A stretch of DNA of 64,000 nt from Albula goreensis (lineage: Eukaryota > Chordata > Actinopteri > Albuliformes > Albulidae): the NCBI GenBank assembly GCA_022829145.1, contig CM040753.1, positions 16,707,884-16,771,883 on the forward strand, given 5' to 3'. This document shows, one piece after another, positions 7,150-62,610 of this stretch (positions within the stretch are counted from its first letter, which is position 1; every line of letters begins with the position of its first letter). A model generated the notes under the pieces. It ran no database searches. It saw only the letters and a list, made by a program, of their open reading frames with translations, and was not told the origin of the DNA. The translations under genes were made by a program, and so were the position numbers.

Positions 7150-7640
7150 GATCTGACGGGAGTCAACTTAATAACTGATTTGGCCTTCACTAGTTAGTCT
7201 AGGAGCCAATCTGAAACAAGCCATCAATAATTCCACCTGAGTAATCACTTCCCCAGGATGCACTGTGGTCTCAGGTGCAAATGGAGTCGGGGGGCAAGAT
7301 GGAGCTTGGAAGCCTGGGCATTCTCAGTGTCCACTTTGGAAATGGTTCGTTTGGAAGTCACAAAGGGCCCCGACATGGCGGAGCCAGAACAGCCACTGCA
7401 GGGAATGCGGTTGGAGGACCACTCAACTGCCATGCGGATGTGGATTTTTTTTTCCCCCCACTGATCATCAACGGGAAATGTTTACCACACAAAGAATGAT
7501 CATAAGGAATAAGGGGGCACATTTCAAGGAAACAAAGTGAGTTTTTCTCCTCTTGCTCACCACTTCACAAATTGCAGCCACCATGAACCACAAAGTGCCG
7601 ATTTAGTACTCCGAACAAATTAAGAGGAATAAACACAATT
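7150..7640. other. candidate conserved non-coding element
   Basis: Complex sequence with balanced composition immediately after the LINE tail. It includes AATAACTGATTTGG, CAATAATTCCACC and a GC-richer core at 7255-7440. Overlapping frames of 60-90 codons are open on both strands here, as expected of stop-poor GC-richer DNA, and none is recognisable. Possible enhancer; texture-based inference only. Confidence 0.3.
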
Positions 7641-8339: not shown

Positions 8340-8560
8340 CAGAAATAATGCAGCCAAAACAGGGTGAGTGACAGAGCGAGTGTGTCTCAAAGCAGACTTT
8401 AACATCTCCAACCCCACCCCCTCACCCTCCCCTTACTGTCCACCTCAACAACTGGCCTACTCGTTGACGTCAGCAAGCGTATGTTGAAGGATCCTCACGT
8501 GAAAATGAGGGAGGGAGGGGGAGAGAGAGAGAAAGGGTGGACTGAGATGCAGTCTCTCTT
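8340..8560. promoter_or_regulatory. candidate regulatory element with CRE and E-box
   Basis: Holds a perfect palindromic cAMP-response element TGACGTCA (8465-8472) and a perfect palindromic TCACGTGA E-box (8495-8502), 30 bp apart start to start, with further CpGs nearby. CREB/ATF and USF/MiT factors bind these words. Palindromic CpG-containing sites usually decay when methylated, so retaining two together suggests function. A GAGA run (8510-8535) follows. Confidence 0.4.
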
Positions 8561-9940
8561 CAGCAGGCCTCAAAGATGTCTGAAATCTGACTTTAATGGA
8601 TTCCACTGGAGATGGTAGAGGGGTCAGGTTCATGCCTGCCAGCTCCTTATTTGGGGGAGAGCGGTTTGTCCTTTAACCTGCTCTTCTGTAAGAAACCCAA
8701 AAGTTCCACTAACAGGTCACAAACGAGTTGTGTATCGTCTGCCCAATCAGAAATCAAAGACCAAAACACAAGAGTTGGCACTTACTCTGTACATCAGAAG
8801 GTCCAAATGTGTAAAATGTAATATTAAAGAGGAGGTTAACACAGATTTTCAGCAGCGTTATTCCTTTGCTGACATTCAGAGTGTGACCTTGCATTAACAT
8901 ATTCTTACCCAGCCATGGAGTGGAACAAACAATGTACCAAATAACACTTTACAATATTACACAGCTTATACACACATACCTAATGTAACCTGCTTAAAAA
9001 CCTAATAAACAGAGCGGTAGCCAAATTACCATCTTACACCTATTTTCTTAGCAGAGCAAGTATTTACAAATAGAGTATTCCTTTCAACTTGTTCAAACCA
9101 TTCCTTTGGTCATGCCAAAAACAACCCTCTGATGAACGGAGATAAAGAAAAAATGGGAAAAAAAGAAAACAGCCCTGAAAGTAGTAACTAGCAGATAATT
9201 CTTTTTAAAACCCTGGGGAAGGCACCTTCAAAACTAACTTTATATAAAACATATATTCGAGGAACAAGTCAATGAATTTATTTTACTCAGAGGGGTAAAC
9301 GCTTTTGGGAAATCAAAGGTTTATCCAATAACCAAAGTTATGGATGAAATATCTTTTTCACTGAGCAACCTTTTTTGACCAATTTAAATCAACGGCTTTG
9401 TGCATCTATCTCAGATAATTCTGCTGTTGAATGAGACTGCATTAAAACAAACCGTACATGAACCCACCTTTCCAAAATGGAATTCGTTGTTTAAAACTTT
9501 CATTAAATATCACCCAAACACACAAATACCAGCTCAAAAAAGCTGAACTTTTGTACAAGTAATTCACGATCTGGACAATATGTGATCTGACCAGTCTATT
9601 TATTCCATGCTCCAATAAAATATGCAACAACAACAAAAAAAAACTACTTCTGAAGAGTCCCATTCAATACATTCACGAATCACATATTCAAACAAAGGAT
9701 TGTGTGTTCTACTTGGTTACAACTCCTGTTAGATTTAGTTGGTCAGTGTATTTATGTCGCTATTGGTTTAATTCAATTAAAGGGGTCATGTTGGTTTCTT
9801 TCTTCTTGACGTTTGAAACCAACAACATGATACCAATTTTAATAGCAACAAATTTCTTAACAATGCCATCATTAAAAAAATCTACTTTCCTCTTGTTTAG
9901 CAGTGGTTCAACAGCACTTTGTTTCTTTGCGTCTAAATAG
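8561..9940. other. AT-rich non-coding stretch
   Basis: No gene or repeat recognised. CpG frequency starts to rise toward the right end, leading into the CpG-retaining block. Confidence 0.45.
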
Positions 9941-11298
9941 TTGTAACGGGAACTAGGTACATACAGTTAGACTGGGAGGAAAAATTCGCAGAGACAAATT
10001 CCGTACAATTACGAATGTAACTTCAGTGAGGCAAACAGGAGAGCAACTGAGTAGAGAGCAGTCCCTCCTACTTTCAAACACAAACATGTATTGTCTTTGA
10101 AAAGTTAAGCTTGTCCACAGACTCATGTGTCTCTGATTATTTAAAATACAGTGCAACATCGTTTTCTGTATTTGAACTTCTGAAATGTTAACCTTTTCCT
10201 ATAAATGTAGTGATTTTGCGCGCATTACAATATATAAGACAAGACTTTAAATATTGCATATTTAAGACATCCACTTCATTTTTAAATGGCTATTCTAAAA
10301 GAATAAGTTTGTAGTGAAATGCTCTTGTGAACCTAAATGTGCATTTCATCCAAAATGTATCAATTCACTTGTCTTGTTTATTTCATGAATTAAAAACAAG
10401 TCATACACTGCTGATGACATATTTATTTCTGAGGTGATTTCAGAATTTATATCCCCAGGATATAGAAACACAGAAGCGTAACTGCAATGACACGTTTTCA
10501 GGGCTGTACATGTAATAAACAGAGAAACTGCCTCCAGCTACATTTAGAATTTTGAGTTGCAAGGCAAAGAGTCAATGGAACTAATATGATAATGACCATT
10601 GTATGATACTTTCAAATGGTACATCTTTTGTGTTGAACGTTCGGTTGAGGTAATTAGGCTAGACTACGAACTGCATGATGCCTGGCTCGAAAGGGACACG
10701 ATAATCCCAATGAAAAGTTTTTTTTTTATTCTGAAGAATTTGATGTATCTGCAGCAAGTGGATATAACAATTCCACTAAGAATTTCGCTATGAGAATCAG
10801 AGAACTGACACATACTTCCAAAACATGTTTAATTGCACCACCGTCAATACATGCGTAGACAGACACTAGTAAAGAAAATCCTCAATACAATCATATACAA
10901 AGAACATCTCAGTTATTAAAACAAAGACTAGTTTTTAATCCAAATTCCAGTTTCTATATATTTTACGATGCATTGCGTCGTTTTAAAACGCGAAACCAGA
11001 CACAAAAAAGGAAAAAAGTGTTAGCTAGCAACACACGTCCGTTTGAAGGTAAATCACATAAACAAGTAGGGTATTATTGTTGAAAAACAACGCCTCATAA
11101 ACGTCAATGAAATGTGGCCAACAACATAACCGAGTTATCAGAAAAGATGCTAGTAAATCAATGCGCAATAACATTTGGAACAAAAGCCTGCAACAAGTTG
11201 GCAGGTATAAGCTTTTTTAGTCATCGTTAGAGCTACTTTTGAAATACGGTAAAAAAAAAAAAAAAGGTAAAAAAAAAAAAAAGTATTTTTAGCCTTAC

Positions 11299-11420
11299 CT
11301 GAGTAGTAAATGTTTGTTTATCCTTTTAACGCTGCCCCCTATGGACTGTACGGTGGGCAGATGCAGATCTTAAGATTCCGTTTCCTCTTCCAAAATGGTT
11401 TATGTTGCATCCATTAAATC
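11299..11420 (-). other. putative non-coding first exon ending in a consensus donor
   Basis: Reading the minus strand, the sequence ends CTACTCAG|GTAAGG (exon end 11299, intron from 11298), a near-perfect splice donor, downstream of the CpG-rich core at 11,700-11,900. No open frame runs into the donor with a recognisable product, so it would be 5' untranslated. The start is undefined; 11,420 is a placeholder and transcription could begin anywhere up to about 11,900. It could serve a separate transcript or be an internal alternative promoter of the gene starting near 59 kb. Confidence 0.35.
11331..11341 (-). promoter_or_regulatory. CTCF-core-like site
   Basis: The minus strand reads TAGGGGGCAGC, matching the invariant core of the CTCF motif (AGRKGGCRS). 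The upstream half of the motif is degenerate. It lies in the CpG-rich promoter block next to the donor-bearing exon candidate. Confidence 0.4.
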
Positions 11421-11750
11421 GGAAGATAGTAAATCCTCAATTTGAAATCGTTATTGTGAAAAATTATTTGCAGACCACTTACACTTTGAGTACGGTCCTG
11501 GGGAAGTGTATATTCCTTTTTCAAATTTCAAATCATGCAATTTTTCGAGCCAAGAATGTGCGATTGGAATCCACTCACACGTACGCTTTTGGTTGCTATG
11601 AGATCGTTATGTGTCCAGTATGTGAATTCTTTCTCTCTTATCCCGTCTTTTCGGTTGGGGGTGGGAAAACGTGTGTGAGATGGCCCCCTTGTCGAGACCC
11701 CCTTCCAAAAAAAAAGTGAGCGAGGGGGGCGAAGCACGGCCTCCTAGCGC

Positions 11751-11760
11751 TCACGTGACC
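11751..11760. promoter_or_regulatory. USF/MiT-type E-box
   Basis: TCACGTGACC, the high-affinity USF/TFE word (GTCACGTGA on the other strand), in the most CpG-dense part of the block. Positionally plausible as a proximal promoter element for the minus-strand exon candidate. Confidence 0.45.
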
Positions 11761-12063
11761 ATTCGCTCGTGAATTACACAACGGAGTGGAAACAGAGGCG
11801 GGTCTGCTGACGGCCGTTACTCGAGACTATGTAGATTTGGATGGAAGAACTGGGACAAGGATGAAAGGGCTAAAGGAGAAATCGCCTACTTGTGGTATTC
11901 AGATGCGTCGGTTCGGTTTCCAATGTATTATTTCACGTAGCATTGTTCAGTCACATCGGTAATAGAAACGCAAATTATCTAGGATATTTCAGTGAGTTCA
12001 AAGTAAATCATCCGTGAGGTACAGGGTATGTCAGACTGAACGCATAATTAAGAGTGTTTGAGT

Positions 12064-19984: not shown

Positions 19985-21180
19985 ACTGCTTGGGTCAATC
20001 TGAGGTGAGAGTGGAGGCTAAAAGGGGCTAGGAAGGCTCCTCCCACACTTAGTGGTTGAATGAAAAAGCTTCTTAAATGGTTCTGCCTGGGGGTCCTACC
20101 AACACTACACTCTTTGGCAATATCTACTGACATCTTGGCATATGAAAAATGAGTTATATGAGCTGAAGGTGAAAGTCCAGCCTCTGGGTCACATCCTTGA
20201 TCATGGCAATGACATCTGTGACCTTGATCACGACAGTGTAGTAGAGGGGAAAGTGTCCAAGAATGACGTCAATCTTGACGTCAGTTCTGATCATGATTAT
20301 GAACTGTCAGATGAGGAGGAAATGGATATTGCACCCTAGCCAACAACTCCAAACCAGACATCCATGTCAAATATATGGCCAAATAGAAAGGTGCTTGTCC
20401 CCCATGTCCATCAGGCAATGATATTGGCTGCAATAAAGACCATAAGTATGAGTCTAGAGGGAGGCATATTTTTGGGCAGAAGTAGCAGGACCTGGAGGAG
20501 CTCATTTACAGGCTTACTTAGGGCTGCTCATCCAGGTTGGGATTTGTGAAAGTAAAGAGAATCCACAGCCAACTGGTGAGATGCAGAGACAGGCAGGGCC
20601 ATATTATGTGCCAACAGTTGTATGGAGAACTTCAATTTCTCAAGCATCATCAGATTTAATCATCTGTCTTCTGTCTGTGTTTATCAGCATGACCCTACAG
20701 AAATTGCTAAAACATTATGAAAAAAGACATACAAAATTAAATAAAAAATATATCTTTTTGCAAAAGTAAAAAAAAACAGTTTTTAGGTAATAAATGAATT
20801 ATCATAAGGAACCACTGTGTGAGAGGGCTCTAATGACTGATTATGTTGATTGTAACTGGGATAAAGATAATTTTTTTGTTTCATCAAACATTTTGGATTC
20901 TAGTTTTGACCAATTTTTAATTAAACATACACTGTACTATTGGGTCTGGGAAATCTTGTTGCTACTGACAGTGAAACATAATAGCAGGGTTAATGTGCTT
21001 TTTGGGCATTTCACATATCAAAATTCATAACATATTTTTCCCCATGTTTATCATTGAGGTGTTCCCCATGCACTTGAATGAAACCAATGTATGTTCAGAC
21101 CTTATGGCCCTGTATGATAATCCAGTCCTGTAGGGTTTGCGTGTCTTCTGGTTTTTGATATTATTCAGGTTCACACGTAA
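19985..21180 (+). mobile_element. possible decayed DNA-transposon remnant with acidic ORF
   Basis: A 65-codon plus-strand frame (20,142-20,339) is strongly acidic, with ELSDEEEMDIAP near its end, similar in character to the acidic N-terminal leaders of some transposases such as piggyBac-like ones. Further short plus-strand frames follow at 20,364-20,549, 20,581-20,769 and 20,794-21,030, as in a degenerate coding region broken by stops. I see no catalytic motif and no clear terminal repeats. An unrelated chance frame is equally possible. Confidence 0.2.
20264..20283. promoter_or_regulatory. tandem pair of perfect CREs
   Basis: Two full palindromic TGACGTCA sites (20,264-20,271 and 20,276-20,283) separated by four bases. 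They fall in the acidic frame, where they encode Asp-Val twice, so the pairing may be regulatory or coincidental to coding. Confidence 0.45.
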
Positions 21181-54999: not shown

Positions 55000-56116
55000 A
55001 GAGAGACGTTGTTTTGATGGCCACATGACATACTTAAATGCCGTACAAACCTGTTGCGAAACACTCAGCAAGCCGAATCTCCCAAGGGCCATCCTGTCAA
55101 ACGCTTTTGAACGCCAGGTATTCTCCAATATGTGTCCAGCACAGGTGTTTTGCTATGAGTGAATCGAGGTACATAAAGGCTGTTCACGCTGGGAACCTCT
55201 GGATGAGACACTATTACCGCCAGAAAAGCTCTAAAGCAGGCTTTAGAATCAGAGAGAGAGGAGAGCTGCCCTCACTGCCAGGCTCTCACGTGCTGTCAGG
55301 TGTCCTTCACAGAAGCGGGAGATGGGGATGGGACGAATGGGCGGGCCTACGCTCAGGGATAAAGCCAGTCCCGCTCTCCGAATTCAAATATTGAATAATA
55401 TAGACACAACTATAACAATAAAGACACAAGTATAATACCTCTTTTGTGATAATTATGCAAAACGATTCAAAACATTTTTCTGGCATACAATGTCGAGCCG
55501 GCACTCATTTTAGAAGGACGGGCATGTAACCGCCCACCACATTGTCCAACTCATTAATATACACCCTCATTACTCTAATTCATAGTGACAGTGGTTTCTG
55601 AATCACAACATCTACACAAAGATATTTTATTAAACGCGTAAACATGTACTATTACCACTAGTATAATACTATTATATTTTACAGATTTATGTTAGTTTGT
55701 ATTTTAAAGACCGGTTACTGCACTGAGTGGTGCATCTCTCTGTCAGCTATACCCTTACAATATTATATATTTCGTTTATTTGTCCGGAAAATAAAATGCT
55801 GTGCGATTTGACCACCGAGGGGAGCTACTAAAACCAAATCAGAAGTATTTTCAAAGGGTAAGATGTGATGGAACTTATTTCTATCGCCAGAGGCAGGGCT
55901 GAACACAAGTCCTAAATGAAAAAGTCTTCATTTCTTTTCCTCTACCTTTGCCCAGTTGAGTGGATTTTGGGCAAATGCATCACAGCCGCTGGCAAATAAG
56001 TGGAGATGTCTCCTATACATAAACGCGGTGCCACCGCCGAAGGTGCTGAGAGAAGACACAATTTAAAGATTTCTTCTATCGAAACAAGATATGGAACATA
56101 GATAGAGGTTACTTAC

Positions 56117-56177
56117 TGCAGACGTTTCCTGGACAAACGCATTTTCTAATGGAAGTAGGCAATGCCTTAGGAAATCG
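56117..56177 (-). other. possible second exon (Cys-containing), uncertain
   Basis: On the minus strand a consensus donor GCA|GTAAGT ends an open segment at 56,117. With an acceptor at ATTCAG (next base 56,177) the 61-nt exon follows the first coding exon in phase 0 and reads through to IRKCVCPGNVC. A closely spaced C-x-C-x4-C pattern after a signal peptide would suit an extracellular Cys-rich domain. Against it: the polypyrimidine tract before that AG is weak, while the strongest acceptor upstream (T-rich, CAAG, about 56,251) would put stops in the frame. Treat as a hypothesis. Confidence 0.2.
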
Positions 56178-57502
56178 CTGAATGCTCAAGATTTTTTGAG
56201 AGGGCCCACTACACCGGCTTTCTTAAAATGTTTATCTTTCTTATACGCGCTTGAAAAAATAAAAAATAAAGTACATTGTAAAAAAAGTTTTACTAGCGAA
56301 TTAATTATTGTTTCTCCGTGAGATACGTGGATCTAAAAAGGAAAGTTAGCCACTTTATCTTGTAAATATTGGATTGCTATTTTATAACATTTTGCAATTA
56401 TGTGTGCACAACCCATACATCCATTGAGTGAGTTCTATCCATACAGAGCCGTACAAAACAATTGTGTGCGTATGTCCTCGCGCGAGTGTGTATCCTGGTG
56501 AGGTGATCACGAACTTGTTTCTCGGGAAAATCTATTCTATATTGAATCAAATAAAGAATTCTGCAACTTTAATTATAACTGTTAATTATAACAACAATGA
56601 ACAAGCCCCATACATAAGATGTATATTTAACGCGCTGAAGACTATGCACAGTATAATTTCAAATTAAATGATATATTCAAGAGGAATTGCTAACTTAAAT
56701 ATGTATTTACAGTTTACCGTATTTCATACAGAAAGCATAATACTTTGATAGCATTTATCAAAGTGAAACACGTGTAAATATTCATAAATACGTCTGGAAA
56801 ATACATAAAATGTAAGACTGAATCGTGAAAGGTTGAGTAAAATGCCTTACCCCATCTCCAGCTTACATACCTATACATTAAACAAGTCCCACATACCTAT
56901 CCGTTTCAATATTGCTCATGAGAACGCACCCATTCCATATTTTTCATGTGATGAAGAATAATGGAGAACTATAATACACATCTACATCACAGTACGATTA
57001 GATTACACTATTGTGCTAAACCCGAGGCCGTTTCCAACCATCAAAAATAGGCAATAACAACATTAGTTGTGAATAAACCCATTTTCTTAAACAGTTTGGA
57101 ACAGGCAGGAAAATGTTCACTATTCCCTATTACACCCTCCCCGACTAAGCCATTATGCCGCGCGCAAGGCACAAGCAGATAGCCACTATAAAATAAACTC
57201 GTTTATTAATGTAATGTGTCGCTGATCAGATTCAATCAGAGTTGACACACCTCTTCTTTCTTACCCTAGCCCATTTAACCCCAAATTATATTTTTCACCG
57301 TAAAATTTGTCGACAATTTACAATGGTTGGGTTGTAATGGCTAGGTAGCTTATTAGTTTTACCAAGACAATGAATGCGCATATGACGGAGACTCATCACA
57401 GCAGGGCAATAACGTTGTCTAAGCAATGGACTGGCAACAATGCCTGCACCGCATCCCTGTTCTTAACGAGTTATGTTCGTATTCTTTTTATCGAGGGAAA
57501 CT

Positions 57503-57511
57503 TATGTTCGA
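57503..57511 (+). other. isolated B-box-like word
   Basis: ATGTTCGAATCCGC resembles the polymerase III B-box (GTTCGAATCC), but no A-box or cloverleaf can be drawn around it. Not a tRNA gene. Confidence 0.2.
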
Positions 57512-57545
57512 ATCCGCTCACTTGAACAGAGCTCGGTAGTTAAGT

Positions 57546-57569
57546 GCACAAGCTCTACAGAGCTTGTGC
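57546..57569. repeat. perfect hairpin, 10-bp stem with TACA loop
   Basis: GCACAAGCTC, TACA, GAGCTTGTGC: an uninterrupted 10-bp inverted repeat in the CpG-retaining domain. It is too short for a microRNA precursor. It could be a cruciform or a dimeric-factor site, or could form in the nascent RNA. Confidence 0.75.
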
Positions 57570-58932
57570 TCTACATTTATGTCAATGCGATGTTGCCAAA
57601 CGATAACGTTTCAAAGTCCAAGCAGACATTAATATATTACCAAAAATAATAAACATTTACTAAAATGCTATACATAAATATCAAACACATTTAAATGTGA
57701 ATTACGAATGCCCATGTCCCTTGAGAATATACACTGGACGCACACGCACAAGTGGCTGCAACCTAGTGCAGTTAAAGTGATATGTATCTACAGTTAACCT
57801 ATCTACCTGACCACATGTAATCAAACCTCTTTAGAAAGCCTTATCTGATAGTTAAAACAACGCACATATTTTAATTTCCAAATTCCCAGCCTTTAAACTT
57901 CCGACTGGACTAAACAAGGGTGTCAACTGCAATCCTTTACTGCCTTCCTTTACTGTTGTATCTTGTAAGAATTTCATATTTGTAAAATTGAACGCTTTCT
58001 GTAATAAAACATTATGTGATTTGAATGACAATAAAAACGAAAAAGGGAAATATGTAAAAACTTGAATCTGGCAGTTATTTATATAAATAAAGGCTGAAGT
58101 ATTCGCGAGAATATTGCAACCAACACGTTCCATATCAAATAAGCCTTTTGAAAATGTGAAGCTGTTCATAAAAGTTGACGTTTGACTGACGTGTGAAAAC
58201 CACTTTCAATGCCAAAATTATACAGTGGTAATCAATTATATACCAACTGTAATTATTTACATTATATAGCCTGCTATAGGCAAGGGGAAAATCGAATTAA
58301 GATTGAACTCATTTAAATAACCATGAAGTAGATGAACGAGAAGGTTAAATTTCATAATAGGCGAAGTATGCAGTAGCGTATAATCATACAGTAAGTCAAT
58401 ACCGCACAGAAAACCCCAAGCTGCGATTGAATAAATTATAGAGAAGGGAAAAGACACAAAGCTCGTTGCGCCCTCTTTCAAAATGATTTCAATAAAATCA
58501 ACATTTCTGATTATAAACTCAAATCGATTAAATCGGTACCTTAAGGAACTCACAGAATAGTGCAAAAAGGTACCACATGCACAATCCGAATATTGTCTGT
58601 CGGATTTGAAGCGGTACCTCGTGTATTCTTATTTGAACAATGAGATGGCGGGATGCAAACAGTTTTTGAACCTAGCAGGATGGCAGTAGCATCGGGTACA
58701 TTCGCTTTCCACTACGTACCAGCATCATCTTTGCAGTATCAGCATCAGTTTAACCCCACCAGCTCAAAGAGATCGAATGTTAACCCTAAACGCAGAGCGC
58801 AGTTCATATAGACCTGATACAACGTGCGAACGACTGCGCCCGACTCTTACAATGGTCTTATTCGATGGTATTTGTTCCTCTGTCTCATCCAACTCAGCCA
58901 GCTGTAATGCAAAGTAAATGGCAGACACTCAC

Positions 58933-59028
58933 CGTGGGTTCAGCATCCTCTACACATTCCGAAAAAACGAGTGACAGGTAAGTCATAAGTAATAGAATAC
59001 AAAATTGAATGGTAAAAATGCCGCTCAT
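58933..59028 (-). CDS. first coding exon of a secreted/membrane protein (partial gene)
   Basis: Thirty-two codons from ATG (59,028) to a consensus donor, ACG|GTGAGT (intron from 58,932), in phase 0. Residues 5-22 (FTIQFCILLLMTYLSLVF) form one hydrophobic helix. A small residue (Ser23) and a polar, acidic stretch follow (CVEDAEPT at 25-32), so a signal peptide cleaved after Ser23 is likely. An in-frame TAA lies 21 bases upstream of the ATG, which fixes the start. The Kozak context is weak (T at -3). The exon lies in a CpG-retaining domain, about 560 bases downstream of a TATA-like box. The protein would enter the secretory pathway. The remaining exons must lie to the left and none could be confirmed. 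I do not recognise the family. Confidence 0.6.
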
Positions 59029-59591
59029 GTACTGCGATCCCACCTTTTACCAAAATAAACTGTGCTTACCTTTTTTGGTAACGGTGTTCCTTTCGTTATT
59101 GTTGTACACATAAATAACCCCTCACATCTTCTTTGCAAATAAATAAATAAAGAGTAATCCTGTATATAGGCGTGTTGCAGCAGATCCAGGGAGCTTGGGT
59201 ATATCTTAGCAATGAATAATTTTTTTAAAATCCCCCCGATAGCGCTGGTTGCTCGGCGTGTGTGATATTGCAGGACTTGCTTCTCAGCCCCGCTTCGAGA
59301 AAGCACAGCTGGCCGCGTTGGAAGCTGTAGGGTGATGTCATAGACACCCCCACCCCTCTCTTTCTCATCCCCCTCCCTTTCATCCACCCCTCCACTCCCC
59401 ATGTCCCCTCCCTCCCCCCTCCCCTCCTCTCTCCCCTCCCTTGACGTGATGAAGTCATACCATTTCTCCACGCCTCCAAAAGTAACGTCCTCCCGCCTTC
59501 TCGAGCATCCTTCGCCCAGGATGAGTAGCATGAAACAGACCAATACCAGGGATTTGAAAGCTACCTCCCCCACATGACACCGTGGTGTCAT
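59025..59591 (-). other. probable 5' leader containing a 188-codon upstream ORF
   Basis: An open frame begins at ATG 59,591 and stops at TGA 59,027-59,025, so its stop overlaps the main ATG as ATGA. The first 45 residues include a hydrophobic stretch (FKSLVLVCFMLLILGEG), but residues 50-80 are Gly/Arg/Glu low complexity encoded by a purine-rich repeat. The rest shows no family features. I regard it as leader sequence in front of the 59,028 start. A real alternative protein, perhaps spliced near GAGAAATG|GTATGA, is not excluded. If transcribed from its ATG it would strongly influence translation of the downstream start. Confidence 0.4.
59341..59441 (-). other. G-quadruplex / triplex-prone purine tract in leader
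   Basis: The minus (sense) strand carries repeated GGG-GGGGGG runs separated by A, GA or AGAGA (densest at 59,404-59,440), satisfying a four-tract quadruplex pattern several times over. It is a near-pure polypurine block of about 100 bp. In the proposed transcript it would lie in the 5' untranslated region. Confidence 0.7.
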
Positions 59592-59617
59592 CTCTTCCTT
59601 TTAAAGAGCAAGCCACC

Positions 59618-62092: not shown

Positions 62093-62365
62093 CAGGAGAA
62101 GGTAGGCATTGCAACACAAAACTTTTCTATGCCAATTGCATACTGCTAATGTTATCAGAGGATGAAGACATAAGAATGTACTTAGTTTGTGCATCTACAA
62201 GTGCCCAGCCAAACAAGGGTTAAGGTGGAGATACTATGCGGGGGGTAGTGGGCTGTAGAGGGTTTTTCTCTGTTAGCTGAGATGTAGCTGAGGGTCCTGA
62301 CTCACAGTTGTCAGTAAACAGTCCCACAGTCCTTTTATTAGGGGCATAATCCCTTGACATCCCTA
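62093..62365 (+). repeat. tandem duplication, unit 1
   Basis: Begins CAGGAGAAGGTAGGCATTGC and continues with CAACACAAAACTTTTCTATG, CCAAACAAGGGTTAAGGTGG, CTGAGGGTC, TTAGGGGCATAATCCCTTGA. The same words recur in the same order in unit 2. Confidence 0.85.
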
Positions 62366-62610
62366 CAGGAGAAGGTAGTCATTGCAACACAAAACTTTTC
62401 TATGCCAATTAATACCCTTGACAGAGGATCGTAAGAATTTACTACATTTGGCCAAACAAGGGTTAAGGTGGAGAAAATAACCTGAGGGTCTGTCACATCT
62501 GATTAGGGCATTAACTCATGTTCTCATAACTATACAGCCACAAAAATAACCTCTGTATCTGATTGACTATAGAATCCCTTGAAATATCCCAGGCCGTCAC
62601 TGCAAAAGCA
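62366..62610 (+). repeat. tandem duplication, unit 2
   Basis: Second copy starting CAGGAGAAGGTAGTCATTGC, with internal deletions relative to unit 1 (about 30 bases missing between the GCCAATT and GCCAAACAAGGG blocks). It ends near the second AATCCCTTGA block. Divergence and indels indicate an old duplication. Confidence 0.8.

Follow-up and report, generated by a model that had tools for sequence, protein, structure and literature searches.

The minus strand of the 64,000-nucleotide stretch of Albula goreensis DNA analysed here (the window) carries at positions 58933 to 59028 a short frame that begins with ATG and runs directly into a splice donor motif, which raises the question of whether a gene whose product is secreted or membrane-bound has its first coding exon here. 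This was found to be the single likeliest of four readings of the locus, though it is held tentatively. None of the four calls for a new kind of object, and the exon, if real, is of an ordinary type; the locus is a fair, unproven gene-annotation lead. A real exon would supply the missing start and signal sequence of a gene whose other exons are distant, and such exons are of the type that gene finders can lose. Otherwise, what remains is a clear multi-kilobase CpG-retaining domain, a candidate promoter or developmental control region.

The 32-codon frame and its donor

Positions 59028 to 58933, translated on the minus strand, gave ATG and 31 further codons, encoding the 32 residues MSGIFTIQFCILLLMTYLSLVFSECVEDAEPT. 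The surrounding open frame spans 59046 to 58897. An in-frame TAA lies seven codons above the ATG, while in an unspliced transcript the frame would stop 12 codons past the donor. The donor-like GTGAGT at 58927 to 58932 follows the last codon in phase 0 (ACG/GTGAGT). The anatomy given in the original prediction, namely a short exon running from an ATG to a phase-0 GTGAGT below an in-frame stop, was therefore confirmed by translation and by reading of the minus strand.

With vertebrate donor weights, this GTGAGT scored 6.58 and ranked 15th of the 7,127 GTs that the two strands of the window contain. A rival donor-like GTAAGC on the same strand at 59064 to 59069, which lies upstream of the candidate ATG and 137 bases upstream of the first donor, scored slightly higher (6.98; rank 12 of 7,127).

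The peptide had also been described as a convincing signal peptide, and this proved too strong. The hydrophobic region (best 12-residue mean hydropathy of 2.56) and the putative V-F-S cleavage site, one of three that pass a simple -3/-1 rule, look satisfactory. However, no K or R precedes the h-region, so that a basic n-region is absent, the ATG sits in a poor context, with T at -3 and A at +4, and there are two rival ATGs upstream. The readiness with which T-rich DNA yields hydrophobic residues would also count against the candidate. A known kind of vertebrate first coding exon codes for a signal peptide and has its donor inside a promoter island. The candidate resembles such exons in its size, its position at an island edge, its phase-0 donor, its hydrophobic start and its acceptable cleavage site, but differs from them in having no basic n-region, no good ATG context and no identified downstream exon or homologue.

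Codon usage in the candidate was ordinary rather than coding-like, with a score of -6.2 that was matched or beaten by 55% of the 24,256 open 32-codon frames in the window, 32 codons being a weak test. Read in its other two frames, the stretch scored lower (-16.3 and -11.0). These scores use a human codon table, and a signal-peptide stretch of this length gives them little power.

Searches of Pfam and PDB with the 32 residues returned no matches at E values up to 10, and such silence is expected because the peptide would be a signal sequence. The first ten residues were found in none of the open-access papers searched, and among the matches listed for literature on unannotated first exons and micropeptides, as far as their accessible text goes, none concerned this locus. 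The peptide is not known to match any vertebrate secreted protein or receptor.

The CpG-retaining domain and the upstream elements

The exon had been placed in a CpG-retaining domain behind a TATA-like box, and both features were found. A domain of 4.5 kb, at approximately 55000 to 59500, has a CpG observed/expected ratio of 0.82 at 39% GC. Elsewhere in the window the ratio is 0.25 (calculated after removal of this domain and of positions 9001 to 12000, which include a second such domain), a strong CpG depletion of the sort expected in a vertebrate. Retention of CpGs thus extends over kilobases, and the candidate exon is still within the domain, a few hundred bases short of its right edge. The second AT-rich domain, at 10000 to 11900 and possibly another promoter, has a ratio of 0.85 over 10001 to 11800, and its GC-rich edge at ~11.7-11.8 kb holds TCACGTGA. 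A near-perfect inverted repeat, ATGACACCGTGGTGTCAT, is found at the edge of the first domain (59574 to 59591).

In Long et al. 2013 (PMC3583005), non-methylated islands in zebrafish overlap 55% of transcription start sites, whereas predicted CpG islands overlap only 17%. The likeness of the present domain to these vertebrate islands lies in CpGs kept at an AT-rich composition over several kilobases, and it is probably a non-methylated island of the zebrafish type, as judged from base composition. The published islands were mapped, whereas the present one is predicted from sequence, and the class of broad islands in the same source is defined by coverage of more than 90% of a gene.

The TATA-like box (TATATA) was read directly on the minus strand at 59163 to 59168. 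Upstream of it, between 59333 and 59457, a motif scan located three CRE-like octamers, each one mismatch from TGACGTCA. These are three of the 15 sites in the window with at most one mismatch to that octamer, a total that is at expectation (shuffle mean 15.56). The order of CRE-like sites, TATA-like box and exon matches that of a minus-strand promoter, the clustering and the box both having been picked post hoc. Two exact copies of TGACGTCA, 12 bases apart, are present at 20264 to 20283, and the only other exact copy in the window is at 8465.

Between the TATA-like box and the candidate ATG, the minus strand holds two ATGs, at 59127 and 59111. The first opens a start-stop, ATGTGA (59122 to 59127), and the second a uORF of 28 codons (59025 to 59111), the TGA of which overlaps the candidate ATG as ATGA.

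If the locus is a first coding exon, the promoter of a minus-strand gene would be formed by the right edge of the putative non-methylated island (~59.1-59.5 kb), and transcription would begin near 59135, ~30 bases downstream of the TATA-like box. The signal peptide supplied by the exon would be cleaved after VFS to leave ECVEDAEPT, and the exon would be spliced in phase 0 over an intron that may be tens of kilobases long, the next exon being either unrecognised in the window (short or odd) or outside it. In the latter case the first intron would have to exceed 58 kb.

This coding reading is favoured by the open frame with its strong phase-0 donor and by the rarity of that pairing in local shuffles. 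The position just inside the CpG edge also speaks for it, given the resemblance to islands at zebrafish start sites (PMC3583005), as does the presence of three of the 15 CRE-like octamers just upstream. Against it were counted the weak ATG, the upstream ATGs, the missing basic n-region, the ordinary codons, the better donor at 59069 and the lack of a downstream exon or homologue, which together hold it somewhat short of an even case.

The same edge could instead be a real promoter with a noncoding first exon, belonging to a 5' UTR or a lncRNA, in which the 32-codon frame is untranslated. Transcription would then start either close to the TATA-like box or higher up, within the GC-rich stretch, and the exon would be left through the donor at either 59069 or 58932. 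This explanation is one of the two main rivals to the coding reading, and a less likely one. The slightly higher score of the 59069 donor suits it, as do the upstream ATGs, the weak start context and the ordinary codon score, and in zebrafish 64% of lncRNA start sites are associated with non-methylated islands (PMC3583005). However, it leaves the rare pairing of a hydrophobic frame with a phase-0 donor to chance. 

Small or upstream open frames can be carried by noncoding first exons. The candidate is like these in its short frame and in the neighbouring uORF that overlaps its start, but differs from them in having a hydrophobic N-terminus that runs into a strong in-phase donor.

Chance pairings and the longer upstream frame

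The frequency at which such pairings arise by chance was estimated from shuffled sequences, the scans being limited to ATG-started exons of 20 to ~100 codons, with hydropathy taken from the best 12-residue stretch and donors scored by splice weights. When the whole window was shuffled at order 2 and both strands were scanned, two of 30 shuffles held a frame whose hydrophobic stretch and donor were no worse than those of the candidate; for shuffles of the surrounding 5 kb, minus strand only, the figure was one of 300. Block shuffles, which preserve local composition, were run on the minus strand for the island edge and for the domain. For 58600 to 59600, the candidate's own values were reached in 0 of 1,000 shuffles, medium values in 4 and relaxed values in 12, and for 55000 to 59600 the corresponding counts were 0, 8 and 33 of 400; the thresholds were chosen after the exon was seen, which makes the relaxed counts the fairer guide. 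At the relaxed values of the block shuffles the real window holds six such loci, the candidate and five others, and at its own values the candidate is the sole such frame. A separate scan of the window at similarly relaxed values yielded 8 rows, from 5 distinct donors, where the shuffles averaged 2.97. The pairing is thus unusual at its position, yet not beyond chance when the whole window is scanned.

These counts bear on a further explanation, that the frame is an accidental one in a regulatory CpG-retaining domain and is not an exon at all. The island would then be an enhancer, or the promoter of a gene on the opposite strand or of one starting at the left edge. This, the other main rival, is less likely again. 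It draws on the 33 domain shuffles of 400 that hold such a frame at relaxed values, on the six loci in the window and on the ordinary codon score, and a further 40% of intergenic zebrafish islands were classed as putative enhancers, with noncoding-RNA starts set apart (PMC3583005). It sits poorly with the absence of the candidate's own values from all 1,000 island-edge shuffles and with the TATA-like box and CRE-like sites lying upstream in a fitting order.

This edge is also covered by the window's longest open frame, which measures 191 aa from stop to stop (minus strand, 59025 to 59600). Its ATG at 59591 has a purine at -3 and is followed by basic residues and then by a hydrophobic stretch. 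A length of 191 was reached in one of 500 local shuffles, and at least 191 aa in three of 20 shuffles of the whole window. Its codon score of 32.9 was the highest among the ranked frames, and its first 55 codons scored 9.6, where the two alternative frames gave -11.5 and -2.3. The total derives from these 55 codons and from a GA-rich stretch of 32 codons, which contributed 11.2; the last 90 codons scored -6.6. That the true coding exon is instead the 174-codon frame running from this ATG, with a hydrophobic N-terminus of its own, to the GTAAGC donor at 59069 is very improbable, as it matched nothing in Pfam at E values up to 0.05 or in PDB at E values up to 1, and as the TATA-like box falls within it and transcription would have to begin at the CpG-poor side of the edge or further out.

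The search for downstream exons and other features of the window

The first-coding-exon reading, which remains ahead of the noncoding exon, the accidental frame and the 59591 frame, in that order, predicts a phase-0 exon further along the minus strand. Of 564 scored acceptors, the top ten under either of two rankings included none that opens a convincing one. The best phase-0 terminal candidate, at 7460 to 7245 (71 codons; codon score 15.3), was rejected on its weak acceptor (0.3), and a nearby candidate at 57998 to 57852 (48 codons) had an acceptor score of 0.06 and a codon score of -15.3. A free exon scan of both strands, using codon and splice weights with acceptor and donor scores above 3, gave no strong internal exon among the best 60 non-overlapping rows.

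Pfam was further searched with the best 300 of 1,165 open frames, made up of the 150 best by codon score of 597 on the minus strand and the 150 best of 568 on the plus strand, each frame having at least 30 codons and holding an AG-to-GT span of at least 66 bases. The 11 families obtained at E values up to 0.05 (best 0.013) are mutually unrelated and were taken as chance matches. Searches of the window with Rfam, at gathering thresholds, and with ARAGORN returned nothing, and a bacterial promoter scan was uninformative for the locus.

The fuller proposal is a long shot. In it, the exon would be the N-terminal one, missing from current annotations, of a secreted- or membrane-protein gene that possibly encodes a fast-evolving or lineage-specific ligand, and the gene would be driven by CRE-like and TATA-like elements in an island promoter.

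Self-comparison of the window revealed simple repeats and one 45-base pair, with none at the exon. The two copies of the 45-base direct repeat (62093 to 62137 and 62366 to 62410) are 98% identical and lie 273 bases apart.
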